Translations under genes and position numbers: made by a program | Shown: positions 15,570 through 61,816 of the stretch, piece after piece | Layout: every line of letters begins with the position of its first letter | How positions within the stretch are numbered: position 1 is the stretch's first letter | Notes under the pieces: generated by a model | What the model was told of the DNA's origin: nothing | Database searches by the model: none | The model's input: the letters and a program-made list of their open reading frames with translations, nothing else | DNA from: Roseimaritima multifibrata | Lineage (GTDB): Bacteria > Planctomycetota > Planctomycetia > Pirellulales > Pirellulaceae | DNA: 64,000 nt | Assembly (NCBI RefSeq): GCF_007741495.1 | Contig: NZ_CP036262.1 | Coordinates: 6,758,001-6,822,000 of the forward strand | Direction: 5' to 3'

Positions 15570-16649
15570 CTACAACGCCCTAACATAGCGTTGCAAATCG
15601 ATCGTAAAACGTTCGATATCGCCACCCACCCAGGCTTGAAAATCCCTGATACGATGGCTCCGCGGATAGACGCGAAAGGGTGGCCCCGTACTGGTCTGCT
15701 GAACCGCCGCGCGGAAGGATTCAGGCCTTGCCTCGGACAAGTAAAAAACCATTGCCCAGCTGAGGCAATAGGCATCGGCGATCTGATCGGGATCCTTAAA
15801 AGCCGTGTCATCGGAGACCAGCTGGCGGATCGCTTGCAGCAGGCTTTCCGAATCTTGGTACCGCTTCTGGAACTGACGCGCGTAGTTCGCATGGACTCGA
15901 TCACGCGTCGAACGGTTTTCACGACTGGCTCCCATCTTTGCGGGTTCGAAGAGACTTCCGATCCCCTCAACCAACCACTGAGGGGTCACCGAAACACGAC
16001 TGTGAACTCCGGTGTTGTATGCCGCTTGATGAGCCGTTTCATGACGAATAGTTTCCGCGATGTATTCGGCATACCCATTCTCGTGCATCATCACTCGGTT
16101 CGAAGCCAAGTGGTAAACCCCGGCGACATTTGAAATCTGGATCCCCAGTTTCTGGAACTGATCTTGCATCGCTTGGCGATCGGGCAAGACCACGGCGACC
16201 AATGGGAAACGCCCGCTGCGAATCTGAATTCCCCGCAGCTCCATATGCCGAATGAACTGCCGGTAGAGTTCTTCAAAATGTTTCGGCCAACGCTGGCCAC
16301 GTCCCCGAGGCTGGACAACCAAGTAGTGAGTGGTTGCCACGACTTCGTAATCGCGACCGAACTCCGATAGCAGCTGACCACGGACCTCGGCAACGGACGC
16401 CGGAGTAAAGCCGGCATCGATTCGCCGGAGGTTTTCGGGCTTTGTTTTGTCCACCGTATCGTGCAACCAACCATCTTGGCCCAACACAACGGTCCGCTCA
16501 GGGACATTGATCAGCTGCAAACCTTGCATCGTCTGCCCTGCCCACTGGAACTCGACCATCGCCGGCCGCTCAGCAGCCACCGTGACTGACAGGGCGATCC
16601 ACAGCGCCAGCAGTGCAAAGAAAGGGAGAAACGGCGATCTCTTTAGCAT
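15570..16649 (-). CDS. secreted DUF1570 protein, putative zinc metallopeptidase-like
   Basis: 359 residues beginning with a clear signal peptide (MLKRSPFLPFFALLALWIAL, cut near AAERP). The key motif is ETIRHETAHQAAYNTG at about residue 200: an HExxH zinc-site signature, with the second half of the domain containing WLVEGIGSLFEP as gluzincin-like enzymes do. DUF1570 proteins are frequent in planctomycetes and their substrates are not known. The short C-terminal part ends in an alpha-helical stretch. It is flanked downstream by the repeat cluster and diverges from the gene at 16812. Confidence 0.85.
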   Translation of the reverse strand: MLKRSPFLPFFALLALWIALSVTVAAERPAMVEFQWAGQTMQGLQLINVPERTVVLGQDGWLHDTVDKTKPENLRRIDAGFTPASVAEVRGQLLSEFGRDYEVVATTHYLVVQPRGRGQRWPKHFEELYRQFIRHMELRGIQIRSGRFPLVAVVLPDRQAMQDQFQKLGIQISNVAGVYHLASNRVMMHENGYAEYIAETIRHETAHQAAYNTGVHSRVSVTPQWLVEGIGSLFEPAKMGASRENRSTRDRVHANYARQFQKRYQDSESLLQAIRQLVSDDTAFKDPDQIADAYCLSWAMVFYLSEARPESFRAAVQQTSTGPPFRVYPRSHRIRDFQAWVGGDIERFTIDLQRYVRAL

Positions 16650-16811
16650 GGAAATCGGATTCGTCCTCGAATTGGGTGATTAGCGACCGGGTCCTTCTGA
16701 AGATTAGGTTAGAATCGAAGAGGATGGGCGTTTTCTAATCCGTCCAGCGGAAGAAGTCGGGACATCGCGCCCATCTATGACGATTTCTCTTATCCTTTGC
16801 GAGCGGTACCT

Positions 16812-18194
16812 ATGTGGCGTCCTCTAACGCACGTTGTCCACACGCCCCCTCTTCGCTGGAAGTGCCTGCTTCCAACGCTCCTGCTGGCGGCGATATCACT
16901 GAACATCATAGCTCCCCCGCTACGAAGCCAGCCTCCCACAGACGACGCTCCCCCTACGACCGAAACGCCGGCGACCGAGACGCCCTCACCTGAAGTGGAT
17001 ATCGATTTCAAGGCGGACATTCTGGAACTGATCGACCAATTGGATGGGTCACGATTGGTCGGACGGCAAACGGCAGAACGGGAGCTGATTAAAAAGGGGC
17101 CCTCTGCCCTCCCCTTTTTTCCTGACGATCCGGGCAGCCTTTCCGCCGAAGCTCGCCTAAGACTCCGGCGCGTCCGTGCCGCTTTGGAAAAACTGCAAGC
17201 CCGCATTGAAACGAAAAATGTCGTTGTCCGCTTGAACGGTGCCAAAACGCTGGAGGAAGCCTTAGAAAAAATCAGTGCCGCCAGCGGGGTCGGTTTTGAA
17301 CATGGGCTGCCACCCAGCACACCGATCGAACTGGGAACCTCCGGGCCTTTATCTTTTTGGCAGGCCCTTGATACCGTCCTTGATGCTGCCAATCTGGACA
17401 TCGACTTTTACGGCGGAGGCGAAAGCAAACTAGCGTTGGTTCCCCGCCAAGAGAATCGTCCGCGACGAATCGATTCAGGAGCTTACACCGGCGTCTACCG
17501 ACTGGAACCGACTATGGTCACCGCTCGCCGAGTCCTAAACAACCCTCAACTAAGTGGGCTGCAGATTTCGATCCAGGTCGCCTGGGAACCACGGCTTACC
17601 CCGATCGGTTTGTCTTTGCCACTAAACCAAATTCAAGCGACCCTCGACGACGGAACGAAGCTGACCCCATTATCAACCGAGGGCGAAATTTTAATCGCCA
17701 CCAATTCCGAGCTTGCCTTTTCAGAGATCGGTTTACCTCTCCAATTACCTACAGGGCGACCTCGCAAAATCAGTGCCCTCAACGGGATGATCGAAGCGTT
17801 GCTACCAGGGCCTCAGCACGCATTTGAATTCCCTTTAGCAAAAGGGAAAGCGGACAGCACGGCAGGATCGGTCACGGTTGAAATCGATGCGATCCGCCCC
17901 AACGGAACTTTGCACGAAGTTCGCATGCTGATGAAATTAAGCGAAGCCAATCGTTCCCTTGAAAGCCATCAACAATGGGTGTTTGATAATCCAGCGTTCG
18001 TAACCGCAAGCGATGGAACGCGGCGGGAGCATTTGGGTTACCAGCTGTTCCGACAAACAGGCAACGAAATCGGAATCGGCTACTTATTCGACCTTGGCGA
18101 AAACGTGGACGATTTTACCTTTCACTACGAAACACCGACCGGCATCGTCCCCAGCAAAGTTCCCTTTGTCATTCCAGAAATCCTACTGCCCTAA
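16812..18194 (+). CDS. secreted protein of unknown function
   Basis: About 460 residues from ATG 16812 (a TTG at 16797 is in frame). A signal peptide (LLPTLLLAAISLNIIAPPL) precedes a Thr/Pro linker and a helical segment around 70-140 (LVGRQTAERELIKKGPSALP) that looks like the short HEAT-like unit common in planctomycete secreted proteins. The remainder is predicted mostly beta, with no catalytic motif that I recognise. It is followed after only 16 bp by the PpiC-type gene, so the two are probably cotranscribed and the product may be a client of that foldase. Confidence 0.75.
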   Translation: MWRPLTHVVHTPPLRWKCLLPTLLLAAISLNIIAPPLRSQPPTDDAPPTTETPATETPSPEVDIDFKADILELIDQLDGSRLVGRQTAERELIKKGPSALPFFPDDPGSLSAEARLRLRRVRAALEKLQARIETKNVVVRLNGAKTLEEALEKISAASGVGFEHGLPPSTPIELGTSGPLSFWQALDTVLDAANLDIDFYGGGESKLALVPRQENRPRRIDSGAYTGVYRLEPTMVTARRVLNNPQLSGLQISIQVAWEPRLTPIGLSLPLNQIQATLDDGTKLTPLSTEGEILIATNSELAFSEIGLPLQLPTGRPRKISALNGMIEALLPGPQHAFEFPLAKGKADSTAGSVTVEIDAIRPNGTLHEVRMLMKLSEANRSLESHQQWVFDNPAFVTASDGTRREHLGYQLFRQTGNEIGIGYLFDLGENVDDFTFHYETPTGIVPSKVPFVIPEILLP

Positions 18195-18210
18195 CCAACC
18201 CAAAATTCGT

Positions 18211-19206
18211 ATGGCACGAATCGCATTTCCTTGCAGTCGCCCCAAACGATTGCCCGCCTGCATCGTCGCGGGAACCGTGTTCGCATGGCTGGCCTGCGCC
18301 GGATCAGCCAACACGGCACCCCCTATCGTTCCAGCGGCAAGCGATCCGGCGACGATCTTGTGCAAGGTCGATGATGCCCCGATCACTCATGGCGACCTCA
18401 CGCTCCTACTGAAAGAGCAGAATCAAAAGGATCCTTCAGCCGCCGTCCGCATCGCCTCGGTGCAAGTTCTGATTCAAAGAGAACTGGCCCTTCGCAGCTT
18501 GAAAGAATTAGGGGGCGCAGCGCTCGCCCAGGTGATTCAGCAACGGACCGAAGAAGCCGAACGCACCGCCGCGAAACGAGGCCTATCCCTGGACGACCAA
18601 GCGGCTCAATTAGGATGCGACGGCCCTTCACTTCACCGCAAGTTAGCATGGCAGGCAGCCTGGGCATCGTTCCTACGAAGCCGCCTCAACGACACCAACC
18701 TACGGCGTTACTTTGCACGTCACCACTCGCGGTACGACGGGACCAAACTCAGACTTTCGCAGATATTCCTGACCCCCGATCCATCCACGACATCGCCCAA
18801 CACTCCGGCAGAAAAACTAGAGCGACTTGCCAAAGACTTGCGTGCCCTACAGCCCTCCGCCGAACCATTTGCAACGGCCGCAAAAGAACATTCGCAGTCT
18901 CCATCGCGTGACCGCGGAGGCGAAATCGGCTGGATCGAAGCTTACGGAGACGTCCCACCGGCGGTTTCCGAAGCAGTCTGGTCCGCCGAACCGGGATCGA
19001 TCATCGGCCCCGTCGAATCACCGCTGGGATTCCATTTACTGTACGTTCACGAACGGCAAGCGGGTGAGAAAACGATCGATGAAATAGCCGACCAAACGCT
19101 TCTCCGCAGCGACGCAGCAAGCGATCTCTTCCAAGCGCTGGTCCAGCGTCAACCGAAGCCAGAGATCGAATGGGTCGACACAACCCTGCAGCCACCAGAG
19201 CTTTAG
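18211..19206 (+). CDS. periplasmic PpiC-type (parvulin) peptidyl-prolyl isomerase
   Basis: 331 residues from ATG 18211; an open frame extends upstream inside the previous gene but homology starts here. A signal peptide ends near ANTAPP. The middle has the SurA/PrsA-like helical chaperone region, and residues ~185-290 form the parvulin domain: LRLSQIFLTPDPS, then RDRGGEIGWIEAYGDVPPAV and GSIIGPVESPLGFHLLYVHE. It should catalyse prolyl isomerisation of exported proteins in the periplasm. Lies 16 bp after the unknown secreted protein gene. Confidence 0.88.
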   Translation: MARIAFPCSRPKRLPACIVAGTVFAWLACAGSANTAPPIVPAASDPATILCKVDDAPITHGDLTLLLKEQNQKDPSAAVRIASVQVLIQRELALRSLKELGGAALAQVIQQRTEEAERTAAKRGLSLDDQAAQLGCDGPSLHRKLAWQAAWASFLRSRLNDTNLRRYFARHHSRYDGTKLRLSQIFLTPDPSTTSPNTPAEKLERLAKDLRALQPSAEPFATAAKEHSQSPSRDRGGEIGWIEAYGDVPPAVSEAVWSAEPGSIIGPVESPLGFHLLYVHERQAGEKTIDEIADQTLLRSDAASDLFQALVQRQPKPEIEWVDTTLQPPEL

Positions 19207-19244
19207 GATTGGTATGACGGGATCGTGCTTGGGCGGCGATCCCG

Positions 19245-19267
19245 CGCTGACGCGGCGGGTTGGGATT
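19245..19267 (+). repeat. half copy of the 23-bp inverted-repeat arm found at 42088
   Basis: CGCTGACGCGGCGGGTTGGG plus ATT differs from the right arm at 42141-42163 at two positions. A GCGAAAGGCGAC palindromic repeat follows at 19303-19350. Confidence 0.6.
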
Positions 19268-19302
19268 TTGGATGCAACCTGCTTGGAATGCGTGATTCCT
19301 GC

Positions 19303-19350
19303 GACACTTTCGCGGAGCGAAAGGCGACAACCAGCGAAAGGCGACAATGG
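19303..19350. repeat. palindromic CTTTCGC/GCGAAAG repeat
   Basis: CACTTTCGCGGAGCGAAAGG followed by a second GCGAAAGGCGACAA. Same family as at 7.7, 24.7, 28.1, 29.6, 40.0 and 61.3 kb. It sits between convergent ppiC and mcsB. Confidence 0.75.
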
Positions 19351-19356
19351 CTGCAG

Positions 19357-20418
19357 CTACTGCGTTAGGTGGTCGTGCAGGTAGCTGGCTCGCTGGACGT
19401 TGCGATCGGAAGAACTCAACAGACGGCCGTGCAGTTTCTGAAGATGGCCGGGCTGCGTGTGGATGAACAGCTCGTTGATTTTCTTGACAGGGACCGAATC
19501 GATCAGCCCCAAATTGACGCCCATCCGGACTTTCGACAGATAGTGCATCGTTTCGTCGCTGCTGATTTTTTTGGCGGTGCAGAGGATCCCAAGGGCTCGA
19601 CTGACATCGTCATGTAAATCCTGCTCGCTTTGGTCGATCAAAAACTGACGAGCTCGTCGTTCATAATCGATCAAGACGGGCACCACTTCGCCAACTTGTT
19701 CGACCAGTTCCTGCTCACTCTTACCGAGCGTGATCTGGTTGCTTACCTGGTAGAAATCGCCAGTGAACTGAGACCCTTCTCCGTACAAACCCCGAACGGT
19801 GACACTGATCTTCTGCAAGCTGCGGAAGACTTTATCGATTTGATGGGTGATCACCAGCGCCGGCAGGTGCATCATGACGCTGACTCGCAACCCGGTACCG
19901 ACGTTTGTCGGACAGGCCGTCAAGTACCCATACTTGGGGTGGACCGCGTAATTGATGACCCCTTCAAGAAGGTCATCCAGATGATTGATCTGGTCCCATG
20001 CCTTGGTCAGGTCCAGCCCGCTATGCATGACTTGCAAACGCAGATGATCTTCTTCGTTGATCATCACGCTGAACTGTTCGCTGGGATCGATAGCGACCGC
20101 GCGAGCACCTTCGGCATCGGCCAATTCTCGGCTGATCAGTTGGCGTTCAACCAGGAACTGGCGATCGAGTTCACTTACTTCGGCAACGTTGACGTAGCGA
20201 ACGTCTTCCCAGCCTTCTAGCTTTTCCATTCGGCTGGAGACCGTCCGTTCGATCGCTTGCCGGTCTTCCGGGGTGCAGCGTCGAATGAACGGAAAATCGC
20301 CAAGATTTCGCGCCAACCGAATTCGGCTACTGATGACGATATCGGATTCGGGACCGGTCCCTTTCAGCCATTCGCCGCAGCGGGCTGCCAGTTCGTCCAG
20401 TTTCTCGTTTTGAAGCAC
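19357..20418 (-). CDS. mcsB: protein arginine kinase McsB
   Basis: 353 residues of the ATP:guanido phosphotransferase family. DIVISSRIRLARNLGDFPF at the N-terminus and TACPTNVGTGLRVSVMMHLP near 205-225 are diagnostic; the Cys in CPTNVGT is the conserved active-site Cys. McsB phosphorylates arginines in proteins, marking them for ClpCP in Bacillus. It lies three bases after mcsA in the order rpsT-mcsA-mcsB. The usual partners ctsR and clpC are not in this neighbourhood. Confidence 0.95.
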   Translation of the reverse strand: MLQNEKLDELAARCGEWLKGTGPESDIVISSRIRLARNLGDFPFIRRCTPEDRQAIERTVSSRMEKLEGWEDVRYVNVAEVSELDRQFLVERQLISRELADAEGARAVAIDPSEQFSVMINEEDHLRLQVMHSGLDLTKAWDQINHLDDLLEGVINYAVHPKYGYLTACPTNVGTGLRVSVMMHLPALVITHQIDKVFRSLQKISVTVRGLYGEGSQFTGDFYQVSNQITLGKSEQELVEQVGEVVPVLIDYERRARQFLIDQSEQDLHDDVSRALGILCTAKKISSDETMHYLSKVRMGVNLGLIDSVPVKKINELFIHTQPGHLQKLHGRLLSSSDRNVQRASYLHDHLTQ

Positions 20419-20421
20419 GCC

Positions 20422-20958
20422 TTAACCTTCCTCGGTAGACGAAGAATCGGAAGGGTCGGCATCCCCAGTTTCCAGATCTCGTAGCAGATCGCGAACTTCC
20501 GAAGCCCGTTCGTAGTCCTCACGTTCGACAGCTTCATCCATTTCGCGCCGCAACTGAATCGCTTGAGCCTGACGATCGGCAGAAGGAGCGGCCCGCTTGG
20601 GGCGTTTACCTTGGTGCTCTAATGAGTCATGGATGTTGCTTAGCAAGGGCTCCAGATCCTTCTGAAAGTGGGTGTAATCGTAGGGACACCCTAAGCGTCC
20701 AGCATTGCGGAATTCGTAGAACGTGATCCCACAAACCGGGCAAGCTTTTCGATCCAGCTCGGCAAGCTCTTCTTTGGTCTGCCCAAGCTTCAGCTGTTTC
20801 GCCAGCGCACTGGCGACCGATGCCATTGGCGTCGGAGCTTCCTGCGAAAGAAATCCGCGCGCGTGCTCCTCACACAAATGGAGCACTTTAGGCCCATCTG
20901 GCTCGATCAGCTCGGTGATATGAAACGTCGCAGGCTTTTCGCAGTGTTGGCACTTCAT
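20422..20958 (-). CDS. mcsA: McsA, zinc-finger activator of McsB, with UVR motif
   Basis: 178 residues. Four CxxC-type pairs give zinc fingers: CQHC at the start, a CEEH pair near 29, CPVC near 94 and GCPYDYTHF near 110. The C-terminal helix EMDEAVEREDYERASEVRDL is a UVR motif, as in UvrB/UvrC and McsA. McsA binds and activates McsB. The linker between them is not unusual. Three bases separate its stop from mcsB, so coupled translation is likely. Confidence 0.92.
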   Translation of the reverse strand: MKCQHCEKPATFHITELIEPDGPKVLHLCEEHARGFLSQEAPTPMASVASALAKQLKLGQTKEELAELDRKACPVCGITFYEFRNAGRLGCPYDYTHFQKDLEPLLSNIHDSLEHQGKRPKRAAPSADRQAQAIQLRREMDEAVEREDYERASEVRDLLRDLETGDADPSDSSSTEEG

Positions 20959-21015
20959 CGGATGAGCCTTTTGAATGTTCCGTAAACCGTGCGAGCCGCT
21001 AATGGACGCAAACGA

Positions 21016-21294
21016 TTACGCAGCGGCTTCGGCTTTGGCTTTTTTGATCAGGTGCTGAATACGGCTTTTGGTACGAGCTGCGGTGTTCTTGTGAAGAACT
21101 CCACGAGCACATGCTTTGTCGATTTTTCGGCTCGCAACGCGGCCTTCTGCATCGGCGGTTTCCAGTTGTCCACCAGCGACAGCTTCGCGAACCTTGCGAA
21201 TCTGCGAACGCAGACCGGTACGGATGGCTCGGTTGGCTTGACGTAGTTTCTCGTTCTGGCGAAGCCGCTTTTTCGCACTGAGTGAATTAGGCAT
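21016..21294 (-). CDS. rpsT: 30S ribosomal protein S20
   Basis: 92 residues, the normal size. Opens MPNSLSAKKRLRQNEKLRQA and ends with KNTAARTKSRIQHLIKKAKA, both typical of S20, which binds 16S rRNA in the small subunit. Highly basic with no hydrophobic segments. 57 bp upstream of mcsA on the same strand, so cotranscription with mcsAB is plausible. Confidence 0.95.
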   Translation of the reverse strand: MPNSLSAKKRLRQNEKLRQANRAIRTGLRSQIRKVREAVAGGQLETADAEGRVASRKIDKACARGVLHKNTAARTKSRIQHLIKKAKAEAAA

Positions 21295-21615
21295 ACTGTT
21301 AGCTGAGTGTGGTCAGATGTAGGGTAAAGCTGAATTGGTTCGGGATGTCCAGCCATGGGCTGTCAAACGGAACCTCAAATTATGTCGGGGGCTCCCTTTT
21401 TTGTCTAGGGCCAGCGAATGCTTTGTCGGGGTTGCCTCCCAAGGGGGGACCGGATAACCGAAAACCTGGGCAAGCACCAACGGCCCCAAACACCCTTCGT
21501 CCATTTAATTTTGAGACTTGCCCCCGTTTTCCTCGCAATTCCTGAAATTACACTCTAACGAAGCCCTCACTTCCTATTCTAACCTTTCCTACACTCCTTC
21601 CGCGGACCGATTCAG
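21295..21615. other. gene-free stretch between divergent rpsT and cobA-hemD
   Basis: I see no credible gene, hairpin or repeat here. It must hold the promoters of both divergent transcription units, but no -10/-35 pair stands out. Confidence 0.5.
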
Positions 21616-23133
21616 TTGAAATGTGCCCAGGTTTACTTGATCGGTTCCGGCCCCGGTGACCCCGGCCTGCTGACGCTCCGCGGAGCCGCCTGTTTGGCCG
21701 CTTCGGACGTCGTGCTTTATGACGGGCTAAGCAACGTTGCGATGCTTTCCCACGCCCCCAATGCGCAGCATATCTGCGTTGGCAAGCACGGCCAGAGCCG
21801 GATCTGGAAACAGGAAGAAATCATTGCCGAAATGCTGCAGCACGTCTCCCACGGAAAGACCGTTGCCCGCCTAAAAGGAGGCGACCCCGCCGTCTTCGCC
21901 CGCACCGCCGAAGAGGTAGACGCTCTTAAAGCTGCTGAAATCCCTTTCGAAATCGTTCCCGGGATCACCGCCGCCCTCGCCGCAGGCAGCTACGCCGGAA
22001 TTCCCGTCACCCACCGCAAATGGGCCTCCGCGGTCGCTCTGGTCACCGGCCACGAAGAACCTGACAAACCGGAATCGGCACTCGACTGGGATGCTTTGGC
22101 AAAATTTCCCGGCACCTTAGTGATCTACATGGGGGTTACGACGGCCGAGACCTGGACCCGGGCCCTCCTGGACGCGGGCAAGCCAGCCGACACGCCGGCC
22201 GCGATCCTGCGACGTGTCAGCCTGCCCGACCAACAAAGCATCCACTGCCGCCTAGACGAAGTTACCGACCACCTCACGCCCGCCTCGAAATTCCGACCTC
22301 CCGCAATTGTGATCCTAGGAGCGGTAACCAAACTGGCAGAAACGATGAGCTGGTTCGAGCACCGCCCACTGTTTGGCACGCGGATCCTCGTCACAAGACC
22401 GGAAAACCAATCCGAAGAACTGGCCGCCGGACTCCGCGAACTTGGAGCCGAGGTCACCTCGCAACCGGCGATCACGATATCAGCTCCCGAATCATGGGAC
22501 GAAGTCGATCGCTGCCTGAATCAGATCACTGCTGGCGACACGCTGGTTTTCGCCAGCCGCAATGGCGTCCGCTTCCTCGCCAAACGCTGGACCGAAAACG
22601 GGCTCGATGCGAGACACTTCGCGGGCGTTCGGATCGCCGCGGTCGGAACCCGGACCGCCGAAGCCCTCCAAGAGCACGGGCTCCGGGCGGACATTGTCCC
22701 CGATGACTTTACGGCCGAAGGCTTGGCATCCACATTGTCGCCCGATGCCCAGGACCGCCGATTCTGGCTGATCCGAGCCAGCCGCGGACGAAACGTTTTG
22801 GCGGAAACGCTCCAAAACGCAGGCGGGAACGTTGACCAAATCGTTACCTACCGCAATGAAGACACCGCCGTCGCCGACCCGCACATCGCCGACCAACTTC
22901 AGCAAGGATCCTTCGACTGGGTCACGGTAACCAGCAGCGCGATCGCTCGCTCGCTGCACAACCTATACGGCGACGCGCTATTCCAAACCAAGCTTGCCAG
23001 CATCAGCCCGATCACCACTCAAACGCTCTCTGAAATCGACTCACTGAACGCATCCCCTGTCGCGGCCGAAGCAACCACATTCACCATGGCAGGCCTGATC
23101 GAAGCCATCCTGAAACACAAACAGGAATCATGA
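21616..23133 (+). CDS. cobA: fused uroporphyrinogen-III C-methyltransferase / uroporphyrinogen-III synthase
   Basis: 505 residues in two domains. Residues 1-~245 are SUMT: VYLIGSGPGDPGLLTLRGA, DVVLYDGL, ARLKGGDPAVFAR and VPGITAALAAGSYAGIPVTH, the SAM-binding signatures. Residues ~255-505 are HemD-like (LFGTRILVTRPENQSEELAA), which closes the tetrapyrrole ring. The protein would make uroporphyrinogen III and methylate it towards siroheme or cobalamin. The start is a TTG at 21616. The downstream flavoprotein overlaps its stop by 4 bp (ATGA), so the two are translationally coupled. Confidence 0.93.
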   Translation: MKCAQVYLIGSGPGDPGLLTLRGAACLAASDVVLYDGLSNVAMLSHAPNAQHICVGKHGQSRIWKQEEIIAEMLQHVSHGKTVARLKGGDPAVFARTAEEVDALKAAEIPFEIVPGITAALAAGSYAGIPVTHRKWASAVALVTGHEEPDKPESALDWDALAKFPGTLVIYMGVTTAETWTRALLDAGKPADTPAAILRRVSLPDQQSIHCRLDEVTDHLTPASKFRPPAIVILGAVTKLAETMSWFEHRPLFGTRILVTRPENQSEELAAGLRELGAEVTSQPAITISAPESWDEVDRCLNQITAGDTLVFASRNGVRFLAKRWTENGLDARHFAGVRIAAVGTRTAEALQEHGLRADIVPDDFTAEGLASTLSPDAQDRRFWLIRASRGRNVLAETLQNAGGNVDQIVTYRNEDTAVADPHIADQLQQGSFDWVTVTSSAIARSLHNLYGDALFQTKLASISPITTQTLSEIDSLNASPVAAEATTFTMAGLIEAILKHKQES

Positions 23134-24203
23134 ATCACGCTCCCCTACCCTCGTCCGAAAAAGCCCCTCGAGTCCTGATCGTTGGCGCGGGCCCGATCGG
23201 CCTAGAACTGGCTGTCGACCTGCAACGAAATCGCATTCCATTTGAAATCGTCGACGCGGGGCCGATCGGGCAAACCATGAACTGGTGGGCCCCGGAAACC
23301 CGCTGGTTCAGCAGCAACGAACGAATCTCGATCGCCGGGGTTCCGCTACTAACGAAAGACCAATCGAAGGCGACGCGTGAGGACTACCTGAACTACCTGC
23401 GAGGCATTGCGATTCAGTTCAACCTTCGTGTCCGCACCTACGAACCGGTCACCAAAATCCGCCGCAGCGAGCAAGGCTTCGACGTCGACACGATGCCGCA
23501 ACAGTCGCTCCGCAGCGACCATTACGACAAAATTGTCCTTGCCATCGGCGGAACCGACCGACCGCGACGCCTGAACGTTCCCGGCGAAGACCTACCGCAC
23601 GTCGACGGTTACCTGCGTGAACCTCACCGCTACTTCGGACGCCGCGTCTTGATCGTGGGCGGACGGAACAGCGCAGCCGAAGCCGCCCTCCGACTCCACC
23701 ACGCAGGCGCCCAGGTCAGCCTTAGCTACCGCGGACCCGCATTACCCGAAGAGGGAATCAAATACTGGCTTTTGCCGGAACTGAAAGGACTCTGCAGTGC
23801 GGGCAGAATCACCGCCCACTTCGGCAGCGAAGTCGTTCGCATCACCCCGCAAGAAACGGAACTGCGGTCGGCCCAATCGAACGAAACGTTTTCGGTAAAA
23901 GCAGACGACGTCCTAACCTTGATCGGATACGAGCAAAACAAATCGCTCTTTCAATCGGCCGGCGTGAACTTGCAAGAGAGCACCCAGCACCCCGAATTCG
24001 ACTTAGCGACAATGGAAACGAACGTCCCAGGAATCTACGTCGCCGGGACCGCCGTCGCGGGAACTCAAAACAGCCGATACAAAACGTTCTTGGAAAACTG
24101 CCACCAGCACGTCGACAAAATCGTCGCCCACCTCACAGGGCAAACCGCGACCGCCCAAGACGACCAATTCCAGAAACAGATCACCGCCCAGCCTGAAAGC
24201 TAG
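23130..24203 (+). CDS. YpdA-like FAD/NAD(P)-dependent disulfide reductase family protein
   Basis: 357 residues. Two Rossmann motifs are seen: VLIVGAGPIGLELAVDLQ near 18 (FAD) and VLIVGGRNSAAEAALRL near 172 (NADPH). The C-terminal VPGIYVAGTAVAGTQNSRYK and FLENCHQHVDKIV match the YpdA/Bdr type, and the first domain has the family's TMNWWAPETRWFSSNERISI in place of a CxxC active site. YpdA reduces bacillithiol disulfide in Firmicutes; whether this organism uses bacillithiol is unknown. Overlaps the preceding fusion gene by four bases, linking it in expression to siroheme/heme synthesis. Confidence 0.85.
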   Translation: MNHAPLPSSEKAPRVLIVGAGPIGLELAVDLQRNRIPFEIVDAGPIGQTMNWWAPETRWFSSNERISIAGVPLLTKDQSKATREDYLNYLRGIAIQFNLRVRTYEPVTKIRRSEQGFDVDTMPQQSLRSDHYDKIVLAIGGTDRPRRLNVPGEDLPHVDGYLREPHRYFGRRVLIVGGRNSAAEAALRLHHAGAQVSLSYRGPALPEEGIKYWLLPELKGLCSAGRITAHFGSEVVRITPQETELRSAQSNETFSVKADDVLTLIGYEQNKSLFQSAGVNLQESTQHPEFDLATMETNVPGIYVAGTAVAGTQNSRYKTFLENCHQHVDKIVAHLTGQTATAQDDQFQKQITAQPES

Positions 24204-24284
24204 AGGTCAGGCCACAACGCTTTTAAAAGGGCAGCACGGTGCCGCATTTCGCTCGGAATGTGAAACTTATAGGCGACGATTTTT

Positions 24285-24752
24285 TAGCCTTTAGCGCCCA
24301 CGAAAGTAGCTCCAAAAGGACGTTCTTTCGCGGGGGGCGTAAAAAGAATAAATGAAGAAAGTCTGGCTCCCCTCGCCCTCAAAACAAGCTCGCCTAAAAC
24401 AGGTTTGATACCGGATCAACGATTCGCCAGCTAATTCAATTAAGGTCAATTTAAAGGCTTGTTTTTGGGGAGAGGGGCTGGGGGAGAGGGGCCGACAGCG
24501 TTGGGCAAGGCGTGGCATAATCGGCTGAAATCCGAGGCTTTCACCGCGTCTTCGCTGCAAAATCGCCGCCTGAAAATCTCCCCCTCTCCCCCAGCCCCTC
24601 TCCCCCAAGCAAGCTCCACTAAATCAAACAAAGAGGCAGAGATTACGTAACGAGCTAGCAGAGATTTCTTCCGCAACAAAGAGCTCGCTTAGGGGCGAGG
24701 GGAGCCAGACTTTCTTCATTTATATATCGCACGTCCCGAGCGAAAGGCGACA
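24285..24752. mobile_element. MITE-like element, copy A (full)
   Basis: Inner core 24349-24722 has nearly perfect ~30-bp terminal inverted repeats (AAGAAAGTCTGGCTCCCC plus TCGCCC at the left, complement at the right). Inside, a 25-bp perfect inverted repeat (24467-24491 against 24581-24605, GGGGAGAGGGGCTGGGGGAG type) surrounds a ~90-bp GC-rich centre. The core lies between CTTTCGC/GCGAAAG palindromes (24285-24335 and 24739-24752). No transposase is encoded. Copies lie at 29597, 34330 and 61347; this one is in the reverse orientation to the last. It fills most of the gap between the ypdA-like and mtaB genes. Confidence 0.85.
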
Positions 24753-24786
24753 CTAAAAGAGTCACTGCTCAGAGGCGAAAGGCCCC

Positions 24787-26091
24787 CTACACGGGCAGAC
24801 CGACCAATTTTTCGGAAGTTGCATCGACAACCTTTAGGTTGACCAGCGTTCCTCTTTGGACTGGCTGCGAGGCGAAGAATTCGACGGGTGCAAAACGACA
24901 ACTGGTTCCTCGCATGACCCACTCGTTGTCTTCGACTTGGCCAATTCCGGTTAACCCGCGTGTCGATTCCACGATCGCCTGCACCGTCCGGCCATGCAGC
25001 GATTTGAAATAATCTTGGCGAAGGTCCGCCTCCAACGCCAACAACCGCTGGACACGTTCCGCTTGCACTTCCTTATCGACCTGATCTTCCATTTCGGCTG
25101 CGGGAGTCCCTCGCCGCTGGCTGTAAGGAAAGACGTGCACCTTGGAGAACCGAGCCTTGCGACATGTTTCCAACGTCTGCTCAAACTCCTCGTCCGTTTC
25201 CCCGGGGAAGCCGACGATCACATCGGTTGTCAGCGCGGGCTGATCCAGCGCGTCCTGCAACATCTGGCAACGATCCAAGAACATTCGCGTCCCCCAACGA
25301 CGACGCATGCGCCGCAGGACGGAATCACTCCCGCTTTGCAAACAGACGTGCATGTGGGGCGCGATCCGCTCGGGATAATCGGTCATGACTTCGATCAGTT
25401 CGCGAGTCACTTCCGTCGCTTCGATACTGCTTAGGCGAATCCGAAAATTGCCAGGCAGTTCGGCTAATTCGCGGACCAGATGCGCCAAGCGAACCCACTC
25501 TTCCTTGGGTTTGTCTCGATTCCAATCGACGCCGTAATGACCAAGGTGAATCCCCGTCAGAACGACTTCGTGATGCCCCGCCTGAACCAATCGCTGAACT
25601 TCTTCGACGATGTGCTGCTTGGGCCGACTGGTCAGTTCGGGGCGAACCATCGGGATAATGCAGTAACTGCAGCGAAGCAGGCAGCCATCCTGAACCTTCA
25701 CGTACGCTCGCTGGCGACCGGAAAAACCGTCCAGCCCCGTGGGAACGTCAACGACGCCAAAGCGAGTCATCAAATCTGGCAACTCGCGTTTATCGGTGAC
25801 CACGTCGACTACGTTAGGAAGGCTGGCGACCTCCTCAGGGGCCCGGGTTGCGTAGCAGCCCATGACGACGATGCGAGAATCCGGATTCCTTCTGGCCAAT
25901 CGGCGAATCATTTGCCGGCTTTTAGAATCCCCCTCGGACGTGACCGTGCAGGTATTCACGATACAGACATCCGCCTGTTCATCACCCTCCGCATCATCGA
26001 ATCCGATGCGGCTTAAGCCTTGACGAACAAGTTCGGTTTCGTACTGGTTGACCTTGCACCCCAAGGTCACGGTTCGCATCTTTGCCGACAT
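24787..26091 (-). CDS. mtaB: tRNA (t6A37) methylthiotransferase MtaB
   Basis: 434 residues of the MiaB/MtaB radical-SAM methylthiotransferase family. The N-terminal domain has LGCKVNQYETELVRQG and VNTCTVTSEGDSKSRQ with cluster cysteines; the radical-SAM motif is CLLRCSYC; a TRAM domain ends the protein (GRTVQAIVESTRG region). CKVNQ at the start and the NTCTVT sequence are typical of MtaB, which adds methylthio to t6A37 of tRNAs reading ANN codons. It lies 26 bp after clpS on the same strand. Confidence 0.93.
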   Translation of the reverse strand: MSAKMRTVTLGCKVNQYETELVRQGLSRIGFDDAEGDEQADVCIVNTCTVTSEGDSKSRQMIRRLARRNPDSRIVVMGCYATRAPEEVASLPNVVDVVTDKRELPDLMTRFGVVDVPTGLDGFSGRQRAYVKVQDGCLLRCSYCIIPMVRPELTSRPKQHIVEEVQRLVQAGHHEVVLTGIHLGHYGVDWNRDKPKEEWVRLAHLVRELAELPGNFRIRLSSIEATEVTRELIEVMTDYPERIAPHMHVCLQSGSDSVLRRMRRRWGTRMFLDRCQMLQDALDQPALTTDVIVGFPGETDEEFEQTLETCRKARFSKVHVFPYSQRRGTPAAEMEDQVDKEVQAERVQRLLALEADLRQDYFKSLHGRTVQAIVESTRGLTGIGQVEDNEWVMRGTSCRFAPVEFFASQPVQRGTLVNLKVVDATSEKLVGLPV

Positions 26092-29597: not shown

Positions 29598-29837
29598 TGT
29601 CGCCTTTCGCTCCACGAAAGAATTAGCGGCGAAAATCTTGCCCCCCTCGCCCTCAAAACAAGCGCGTTTAAAACAGGTTTGATATTGAATCAACTGTTCG
29701 CTAGCTAGTTCAGTTGACCGCGACTCAAAGGCTTGTTTTGGGGGAGAGGGGAGCCGGACTTTCGTCAGTTAAAAATTCCACATCCCCCGCGAAAGCAGCT
29801 CCAAAAGGACGTTCTTTCGCGGAACCAAAGGCGCCAC
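29597..29837. mobile_element. MITE-like element, copy B (shortened)
   Basis: Carries only one arm of the full element: CCCTCGCCCTCAAAACAAGC at 29644, the AGGTTTGATATTGAATCAAC sector, then GGCTTGTTTTGGGGGAGAGG joined directly to GAGCCGGACTTTC. About 230 bp of the centre and second arm are gone. The CTTTCGC/GCGAAAG end palindromes are kept at 29598 and 29789-29830. It fills the whole gap between convergent serS and the SDR gene, touching both stop codons. Confidence 0.8.
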
Positions 29838-34329: not shown

Positions 34330-34729
34330 AATGTCGCTCGGTTCTCAAAGAAAAACTGGCTCCCCTCGCCCCTAAGCAAGCTCCTAGTTGCAGAAGAAAT
34401 CTTGGCTCGTTCATTACGTGATCTCTGCCTTTTTGTTTGATTTGGCGAAGCTTGCTTGGGGGGAGAGGGGCTGGGGGAGGGGGGGAGTTTTCGCGAGGCA
34501 ATTTTGCAGCGACGGCCCGTTAACGTCCCGCACTTCAAGCGGTTCTGCCACGCCTTGCCCTACCCCTGTCGGCCCCCTCTCCCCCAGCCCCTCTCCCCCA
34601 AAACAAGCCTTTGAATTGCCGTCGATTGGACCAGCTAACGAACCGTTGCTCCAATATCAAAACTGTTTTAAGAGAGCTTGTTTTGAGGGCGAGGGGAGCC
34701 AGTTTTTCTTTGAGAGCCGAGCGACAATC
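34330..34729. mobile_element. MITE-like element, copy C (full)
   Basis: Terminal inverted repeats begin TGTCGCTCGGTTCTCAAAG at the left and mirror GAGAGCCGAGCGACA at the right, then share AACTGGCTCCCCTCGCCC. The inner GGGGAGAGGGGCTGGGGGAG and CCCTCTCCCCCAGCCCCTCT pair is present. The orientation is that of copy D. The outermost palindromes differ from those of A and D, so this copy has another end type. It lies in the 839-bp gap before leuC, between GTCTCTCCGAGAC repeats. Confidence 0.82.
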
Positions 34730-61346: not shown

Positions 61347-61816
61347 TTGTCGCCTTTCGCCCGGGAAAGTAACTTTGAGGGAGCGTTCTTTCGCGGGAGA
61401 CGTACGTTTCATAAATAAAGAAAGTCTGGCTCCCCTCGCCCCTAAGCGAGCTCTTTGTTGCGGAAGAAATCTCTGCTAGCTCATTGCATGATCTCTGCCT
61501 CTTTGTTTGATTTAGTGGAGCTTGCTTGGGGGAGAGGCGCTGGGGGAGAGGGGGAGATTTCCAGGCGGCGATTTTGCAGCGAAGACGCGGTGAACGCCTG
61601 GGATTTGAAGCGATTATGCCACGCCTTGCCCATCGCTGTCGGCCCCTCTCCCCCAGCCCCTCTCCCCCAAAACAAGCCTTTGAATCGTACATAATTGCAT
61701 TAGCTAACAAACCGTTGATCCAGTATCAAACCTGTGTTAAGCGAGCTTGTTTTGAGGGCGAGGGGAGCCAGACTTTCTTCATTTATAAATCGCACGTCCC
61801 AAGCGAAAGGCGACAA
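61347..61816. mobile_element. MITE-like element, copy D (full)
   Basis: Outer ends are TTGTCGCCTTTCGC (61347) and GCGAAAGGCGACAA (61803-61816). The core 61411-61787 has ~30-bp inverted ends with ATAAATAAAGAAAGTCTGGC against a close complement. Inner 24-26-bp GGGGGAGAGG inverted repeat as in copy A (left near 61528, right near 61642). The orientation is reversed relative to A and the same as C. A 60-codon frame inside is a by-product of DNA conservation. Confidence 0.85.

Follow-up and report, generated by a model that had tools for sequence, protein, structure and literature searches.

A high-copy, long-looped palindromic element of Roseimaritima multifibrata with the arm order of the intrastrand triplex motif

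What is the 344-bp nested palindrome that recurs, in three full copies and one shortened copy, in a 64-kb window of the Roseimaritima multifibrata genome, and by what means has it multiplied? (The window is the whole stretch of DNA analysed, 6758001-6822000 of the single 7,216,590-bp contig of that genome, here G000.) The original prediction was of a nested inverted repeat, present four times and lacking a transposase, that would prove to be at high copy number. All four copies are present, three with full cores and one a half copy; the nesting is borne out by the anatomy of the core and its inverted arms, and the element has no transposase gene of its own. What needed revision was where the copies begin, as the starts first given to them fall in neighbouring repeats outside the element, a GTCGCCTTTCGC palindrome being that neighbour at both 29597 and 61347. 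Palindromes of this GTCGCCTTTCGC type, with differing interiors, also occur at window 28128 and at many other loci (64 matches with up to 2 mismatches in the 338 kb of G000 fetched). A 14-nt end of the element, with up to 2 mismatches allowed, is matched 8 times in the window; in 20 two-base-block shuffles the matches averaged 1.25 and never exceeded 3. The features, in window coordinates, are:

24334..24740, plus strand: copy 1, the entire unit of about 407 bp including its outer inverted arms, with approximate outer boundaries (from the flanks of 55 copies)
24325-24378 / 24693-24746: copy 1 inverted arms (from inverted-repeat comparison)
24365..24708, plus strand: copy 1 core, 344 bp, made up of hairpin 1, spacer and hairpin 2
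24369..24378, plus strand: hairpin 1 C-rich stem arm, CCCCTCGCCC
24467..24477, plus strand: hairpin 1 G-rich stem arm, GGGGAGAGGGG
24480..24491, plus strand: hairpin 1 putative triplex third strand, GGGGGAGAGGGG (role inferred from PMC4666352)
24492..24580, plus strand: spacer of 89 nt between the two tails, conserved in length and not in sequence
24581..24592, minus-strand reading: hairpin 2 putative third strand
24595..24605, minus-strand reading: hairpin 2 G-rich stem arm
24692..24702, plus strand: outer G-rich arm, which pairs with 24369-24378 and closes the dimer
29640..29751, plus strand: copy 2, a remnant consisting of hairpin 1 only
34356..34700, minus strand: copy 3, a full divergent core within a different palindrome (TCGCTCGGTTCTC / GAGAGCCGAGCGA)
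61395..61801, minus strand: copy 4, whole unit, with its core at 61426-61769

Relative to the core of copy 1, that of copy 4 is 92% identical and that of copy 3 is 84% identical. To judge from its letters, the 112-bp half copy (82% identical) looks like the outcome of a deletion between the like inner and outer G-rich arms that took out the middle and hairpin 2.

Read 5' to 3', the core consists of a C-rich arm, an 88-nt loop, a G-rich arm, CT and a second G-rich run, then the 89-nt spacer and the mirror image of the foregoing; by analogy with known motifs considered below, a putative triplex would take its third strand from the second G-rich run. Folding of the 376-nt unit gives z = -11.9 as RNA and -10.9 as DNA. 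Among 55 G000 cores, the G-rich arm with its tail is exact in 42 for hairpin 1 and in 29 for hairpin 2, rising to 48 and 39 when one mismatch is allowed. The consensus fold of 30 sequences contains 54 pairs, and in six of these both sides are changed. The alignment combined 15 of the 55 G000 cores with 15 from a congener (G003), the latter chosen from 19 candidates after setting aside two spurious ones (L199, L204), one with an insertion (L197) and L196, which is close to L193 and L194. Compensatory changes that are clean between species involve columns 11-359 (15 GC, 14 UA, one broken pair) and 138-249 (15 UA, 12 AU, three others), the counts being of sequences, so that each may represent a single change per lineage; the covariation term is small (-1.56 of -84.33). 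Between the two species, identity is 0.92 and 0.90 for the inner arms with third strands and 0.90 and 0.84 for the outer arms, as against 0.68 and 0.54 for the loops and 0.46 for the spacer. Additional outer arms, TAAATGAAGAAAGTCT among them, occur in this genus. Comparison to Rfam families yielded 26 matches, all under the gathering scores and 25 of them to microRNA models, which were rejected as a consequence of the long hairpin.

Beyond the window, where a search had been proposed, further copies substantiate the high copy number: G000 has at least 55 uninterrupted cores with a length of 300 bp or above, and another three that are interrupted by insertions (L039, L040, L041), as counted from 36 sources (L031-L065 and the window, with loci L115-L125 and L210-L219 outside the count). 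Mean pairwise identity among the 55 is 0.918. With up to 3 mismatches, a 21-nt end occurs 207 times in the 7.2 Mb (100 forward, 107 reverse), and a reversed-pattern control 0 times. These ends correspond to approximately one two-ended element per 70 kb, the one per 16 kb extrapolated earlier being local to the window. Many cores are in head-to-tail arrays of 2-5, one of which is interrupted by an IS3-like element with an rve domain, and cores at the same locus are more alike (0.959, 32 pairs) than others (0.917, 1453 pairs).

With short forms included, 29 of 58 element sites are between convergent frames, 22 between tandem and 7 between divergent ones (one of 59 being unclassified), when the flanking frames are picked by length rather than annotation. 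The window provides a comparison, with 10 convergent, 29 tandem and 11 divergent of 50. The convergent excess is significant (p = 0.0014), the divergent deficit not (p = 0.20), and a bias toward convergent ends also fits mere tolerance.

The motif itself extends well beyond the genus. It is present in 15 of a sample of 118 genomes of the class, G000 included, with control matches in none. Viral contigs contain it in 38 stretches, and a similarity search of 72,556 plasmid records found it in 42. A 17-nt end was found solely in G000 among 392 genomes of the phylum, a sample that does not include G003, which carries that end (L073). In other planctomycetes, 10 of 27 motif loci are within long open frames, and when six such in-frame loci were compared to Pfam a domain match spanned the motif in L140, L141 and L144, with no spanning match in L152 and L154; in the sixth (L142 655-1776, of G435) a single open frame contains ThiS and ThiG joined by a compact motif. 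These compact motifs inside coding frames are suggestive only, as signs of movement. In a Planctomycetaceae MAG (L127 1-245) a compact dimer is within a perfect inverted repeat of about 47 bp. No published account of the element in planctomycetes was found in the open-licence papers searched.

Counting only hairpins with a C-rich arm within 130 nt, loop length falls into a series: 3-10 nt in 33 of 34 hairpins of other planctomycetes (the remaining one being 95), 3-13 nt in 46 of 48 from viral contigs, 36-38 nt in 8 of 8 from G001, of the same genus, and 86-90 nt in 38 of 38 from G003. For the 107 G000 hairpins whose C-rich arm was located, the loop is 87-90 nt in 102 and 12-13 nt in five. The tail-to-tail spacer is 88-90 nt in 33 of 33 G000 pairs and 88-93 nt in 16 of 16 G003 pairs. 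In G001, 32 of 40 pairs among the matches listed are at 88-94 nt, a further five at 96-98 nt, and the last three at 35, 135 and 136 nt (the pairs come from 100 listed of 229 places, and 19 without a near partner are excluded). In the distant genome G364, of which 800 kb was sampled, 6 of 11 pairs are at 88-91 nt and the rest at 79, 80, 82, 149 and 149; a strand bias of the motif there was considered and rejected as an effect of list order, forward and reverse matches pairing up. Four pairs from other planctomycetes are at 45, 87, 88 and 91 nt, and no tail-to-tail pair was found in the viral contigs. Since G001 and G364 pairs also cluster near it, a spacing near 89 nt, though not strict, predates the growth of the loops. 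A preferred 88-90 nt between arms, kept despite sequence drift, gives a tangible pointer to whatever machinery copies or processes the element.

Has the element moved? When 26 G003 element loci are set against 60 from G000, no shared neighbour is found at 22 to 24 of the 26, to which gene loss and rearrangement could contribute. An orthologous gene is directly beside the element in both species at two (L178 and window copy 1; L189 and L043). Weaker same-side matches, perhaps also shared sites, are L198 with L059 (52% identity) and L207 with L063 (56%, more than 1 kb away), and for L185 and window copy 4 there is a 77% gene match on the wrong side. At the first of the shared sites, cross-species core identity is 0.634, compared to 0.643 and 0.634 for other pairs, so the core there, being no closer than others, was replaced or arrived twice; G001 has no such repeat within 1.5 kb of the gene orthologous to that at 24787-26091. 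Copies at identical sites in every relative, the outcome that would have told against insertion, were thus not seen in the relatives compared. Synteny with G003 breaks at window 24204-24786, the matches of genes 15570-24203 being inverted and about 36 kb away, so that an inversion breakpoint coincides with the intergenic region of the element.

Another sign of spread is a core repeated almost unchanged in other surroundings. Window copy 1 shares 343 of 344 core bases with an IS-split copy 3.6 Mb away, at 3.19 Mb, the match stopping about 16 bp outside the core on both sides, though this pair may reflect conversion of a copy already in place. For L043 and L047 the match runs 48 bp left and 78 bp right of the core, into neighbouring repeats, and copy tracts of such varying length suit conversion as well as transposition. 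Copies 3 and 4, L037 and L056 are likely insertions into palindromes. The target-site duplications that had been anticipated did not materialize: at 27 isolated copies there is no duplication of constant length, the duplication score averages 4.8 for a copy's own flanks versus 3.9 for those of others, and the one direct match of at least 8 (L060) arises from a neighbouring repeat. The idea, suggested by eye, that flanks more than about 32 bp from the core form outer, concentric palindrome shells was rejected, own flanks being no more inverted than shuffled ones (in three settings with 39 copies, the observed value was equalled or exceeded by 265, 511 and 1371 of 2000 permutations). A stricter version had 27 copies and 18 settings, three of them inside the unit and inverted as expected; for the 20 bp from 32 bp outwards there was a weak excess of both inverted (p 0.007-0.019) and direct (p 0-0.004) matches, the direct excess extending to two neighbouring settings (p 0.005-0.11).

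Genes for Y1_Tnp tyrosine transposases are present in three of four genomes from the genus, at 28 loci of which G000 has 8, and in five of six motif-holding genomes (37 matches, 30 loci fetched), G277 having the motif and no Y1_Tnp match. Allowing up to 4 mismatches, the whole motif including its tail is in none of these 58 loci from 8 genomes, and 34 of 35 element loci are positive by the same measure. Even at up to 6 mismatches, only two Y1_Tnp loci give matches, both poor, and 10-12 nt pieces with one mismatch yield stray matches in 8 of the 28 loci, two of them inside the gene. In L225 there is a short CCCTCTCCC/GGGAGAGGG hairpin. A tyrosine transposase link was accordingly rejected and, with respect to Y1 transposases in these genomes, the motif is an orphan. 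Other inverted repeats surround the gene in 48 of the 55 sufficiently long loci (0 of 55 when shuffled), and the G000 locus L082 has a different REP family on both sides. A second G000 family (L106-L112), with similar outer ends (GACGTGAAATCTATAAATGAAG) and another interior, contains the REP that flanks the L082 transposase gene. No transposase whose ends match those of the element, as had been suggested for checking, nor any other autonomous element with such ends, was met among the fetched loci, 100 of the 207 end matches having been listed.

Attention is drawn to an insertion sequence of 1702 bp that has ends of the TGGACYGTCAAAAA type and duplications of 9 bp (L041 1379-3080, equivalent to G000 3186878-3188579, and L250). 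Pfam gives no match at E 0.001 for the protein of 538 aa that it encodes, and relatives with 37-41% identity keep D189, D258 and E460. G000 has two copies, identical in protein, and one 50-aa remnant, with one of the copies located within the CCCCCAGCC tail of the element. A 181-bp insert with similar ends occupies the same CCCCCAGCC position in two G000 copies (L039 2618-2798, L040 2902-3082), and a similar-looking insert is in the same place in L197 of G003. Mobile DNA of the 181-bp type may prefer the triplex tail.

On balance, the element is probably a non-autonomous palindrome of REPIN/BIME-like character, two TM/PIT hairpins tail to tail with a spacer of about 89 nt, loops of about 88 nt and short outer inverted arms, that has been moved in trans, amplified and homogenized. 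The observations behind this are the anatomy, the copy number and the conservation of arms and third strands relative to drifting loops, together with the series of loop lengths, the mostly different sites in the congener, the tandem arrays and the preference for the 3' ends of genes. Exposure of a strand, on the lagging strand or through supercoiling, would let the dimer fold into a long or branched hairpin that some enzyme could copy or move in trans. Unequal recombination would then amplify it locally, gene conversion would homogenize the copies, and these would persist mainly at the 3' ends of genes because they do least harm there. Against this reading, the 88-nt loops exceed the limits that define intrastrand triplexes, and neither an enzyme nor a constant target duplication nor a sequenced empty allele was found. 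The first two of these absences fit as well with there having been no transposition at all, the triplex-prone dimers stalling replication and spreading via template switching, unequal recombination and gene conversion in concerted evolution. This is a serious rival, if a somewhat unlikely one: head-to-tail arrays share spacers, same-locus copies are the more alike, copy tracts vary in length, the G003 copy L202 is chimeric-looking by eye, and TM loci are unstable in E. coli according to PMC4666352. Conversion, however, needs a resident copy, yet the great majority of G003 sites have no shared neighbour (which loss or rearrangement could also explain), and compact relatives are found within the open frames of conserved genes.

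A role selected in cis, as a bidirectional terminator or a 3' RNA stabilizer, would account for the convergent bias, the compensatory changes and the strong fold. It is nevertheless improbable, given that most sites are not common to G003, that tolerance would give the same bias and that PIT motifs lacked promoter or terminator activity in earlier work cited in PMC4666352. Less probable still is a classical transposon or MITE, its inverted ends recognized by a DDE transposase encoded elsewhere. The long inverted ends, the abundance of the end sequence in G000 and the weak excess of direct matches just outside the ends are what such an origin would have in its favor, but duplications of constant length are missing at the isolated copies, no matching-end transposase was met among the fetched loci, the IS inside one copy has unrelated ends, and the inverted ends include the triplex arms, which are present in compact repeats also. 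Returning to the mobile dimer, a wider proposal is put forward as a rather doubtful one, namely that TM/PIT dimers are an orphan mobile palindrome family of many bacteria, moved by a non-Y1 enzyme and with an arm spacing near 89 nt preferred in planctomycetes, of which the long-loop form of this genus would be a recently active, traceable version.

Comparison with known systems places the element outside several classes to which it has resemblances. With REPINs (Bertels and Rainey 2011) it shares, according to PMC3116915, the inverted doublet of REPs, ordered tandem clusters, a non-autonomous nature and a spacer in which length and pairing count for more than sequence, and the spacing of its G000 pairs is that of a fixed-spacer doublet. 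It differs in its size of about 344 bp, its third-strand tails and the lack of a linked RAYT; none of the 58 Y1_Tnp loci has a RAYT flanked by the same REP, and neither a GTAG nor a CGTC tag is at the hairpin feet of copy 1, so it is not classed as a REPIN. Its GGGGAGAG and GGGGTGAG fit the GGGGWSAS motif of the TIR repeats that flank TIRYT genes (PMC3733652), a lead rather than a sign of membership; the element's repeat is in none of the 58 tyrosine-transposase loci. The CGTC repeats described in the same paper are likewise REP families without a linked transposase, and differ in the tag that the element lacks. The constant-length target-site duplication of MITEs is absent from the 27 isolated copies.

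The closest resemblance is to the G/C-rich intrastrand triplex motif, TM or PIT (also Hoyne et al., as cited in PMC4666352), reported in more than 260 genomes. As described by Holder et al. 2015 (PMC4666352), E. coli TM_ECO is CCCTCGCCCCTTTGGGGAGAGGGTTAGGGTGAGGGG, with inverted pairs in five cases; no transposases were near TM sites, there was no support for a stable triplex in vivo, and the main text makes no mention of a planctomycete. In both systems a C-rich arm is followed by a G-rich arm and then by a second G-rich run with nearly the same letters, two variants form inverted pairs and no transposase has been seen nearby. Published triplex searches have loop limits of 0-10 or 1-6 nt (PMC4666352), and loops in TM_ECO are of a few nt rather than 87-90; the E. 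coli third strand is GGGGTGAGGGG rather than GGGGGAGAGGGG, and four of the five E. coli pairs have spacers of 16-27 nt, reckoned from Table 1 coordinates, rather than about 89. The element also adds outer inverted arms. By the purine-motif rule, a change from GGGGTGAGGGG to GGGGAGAGGGG leaves a triplex possible. The arm order is that of TM/PIT, and the short loops of that motif are found in the compact planctomycete relatives and not in the element, which is therefore a long-looped variant of the known motif. The compact motif of hundreds of genomes is too short to trace copy by copy; each copy of the long-looped form holds about 260 nt of drifting loop and spacer, so that copy events, conversion tracts and chimeras are traceable, and with loops long enough to tell copies apart it may help show how the triplex motif spreads.
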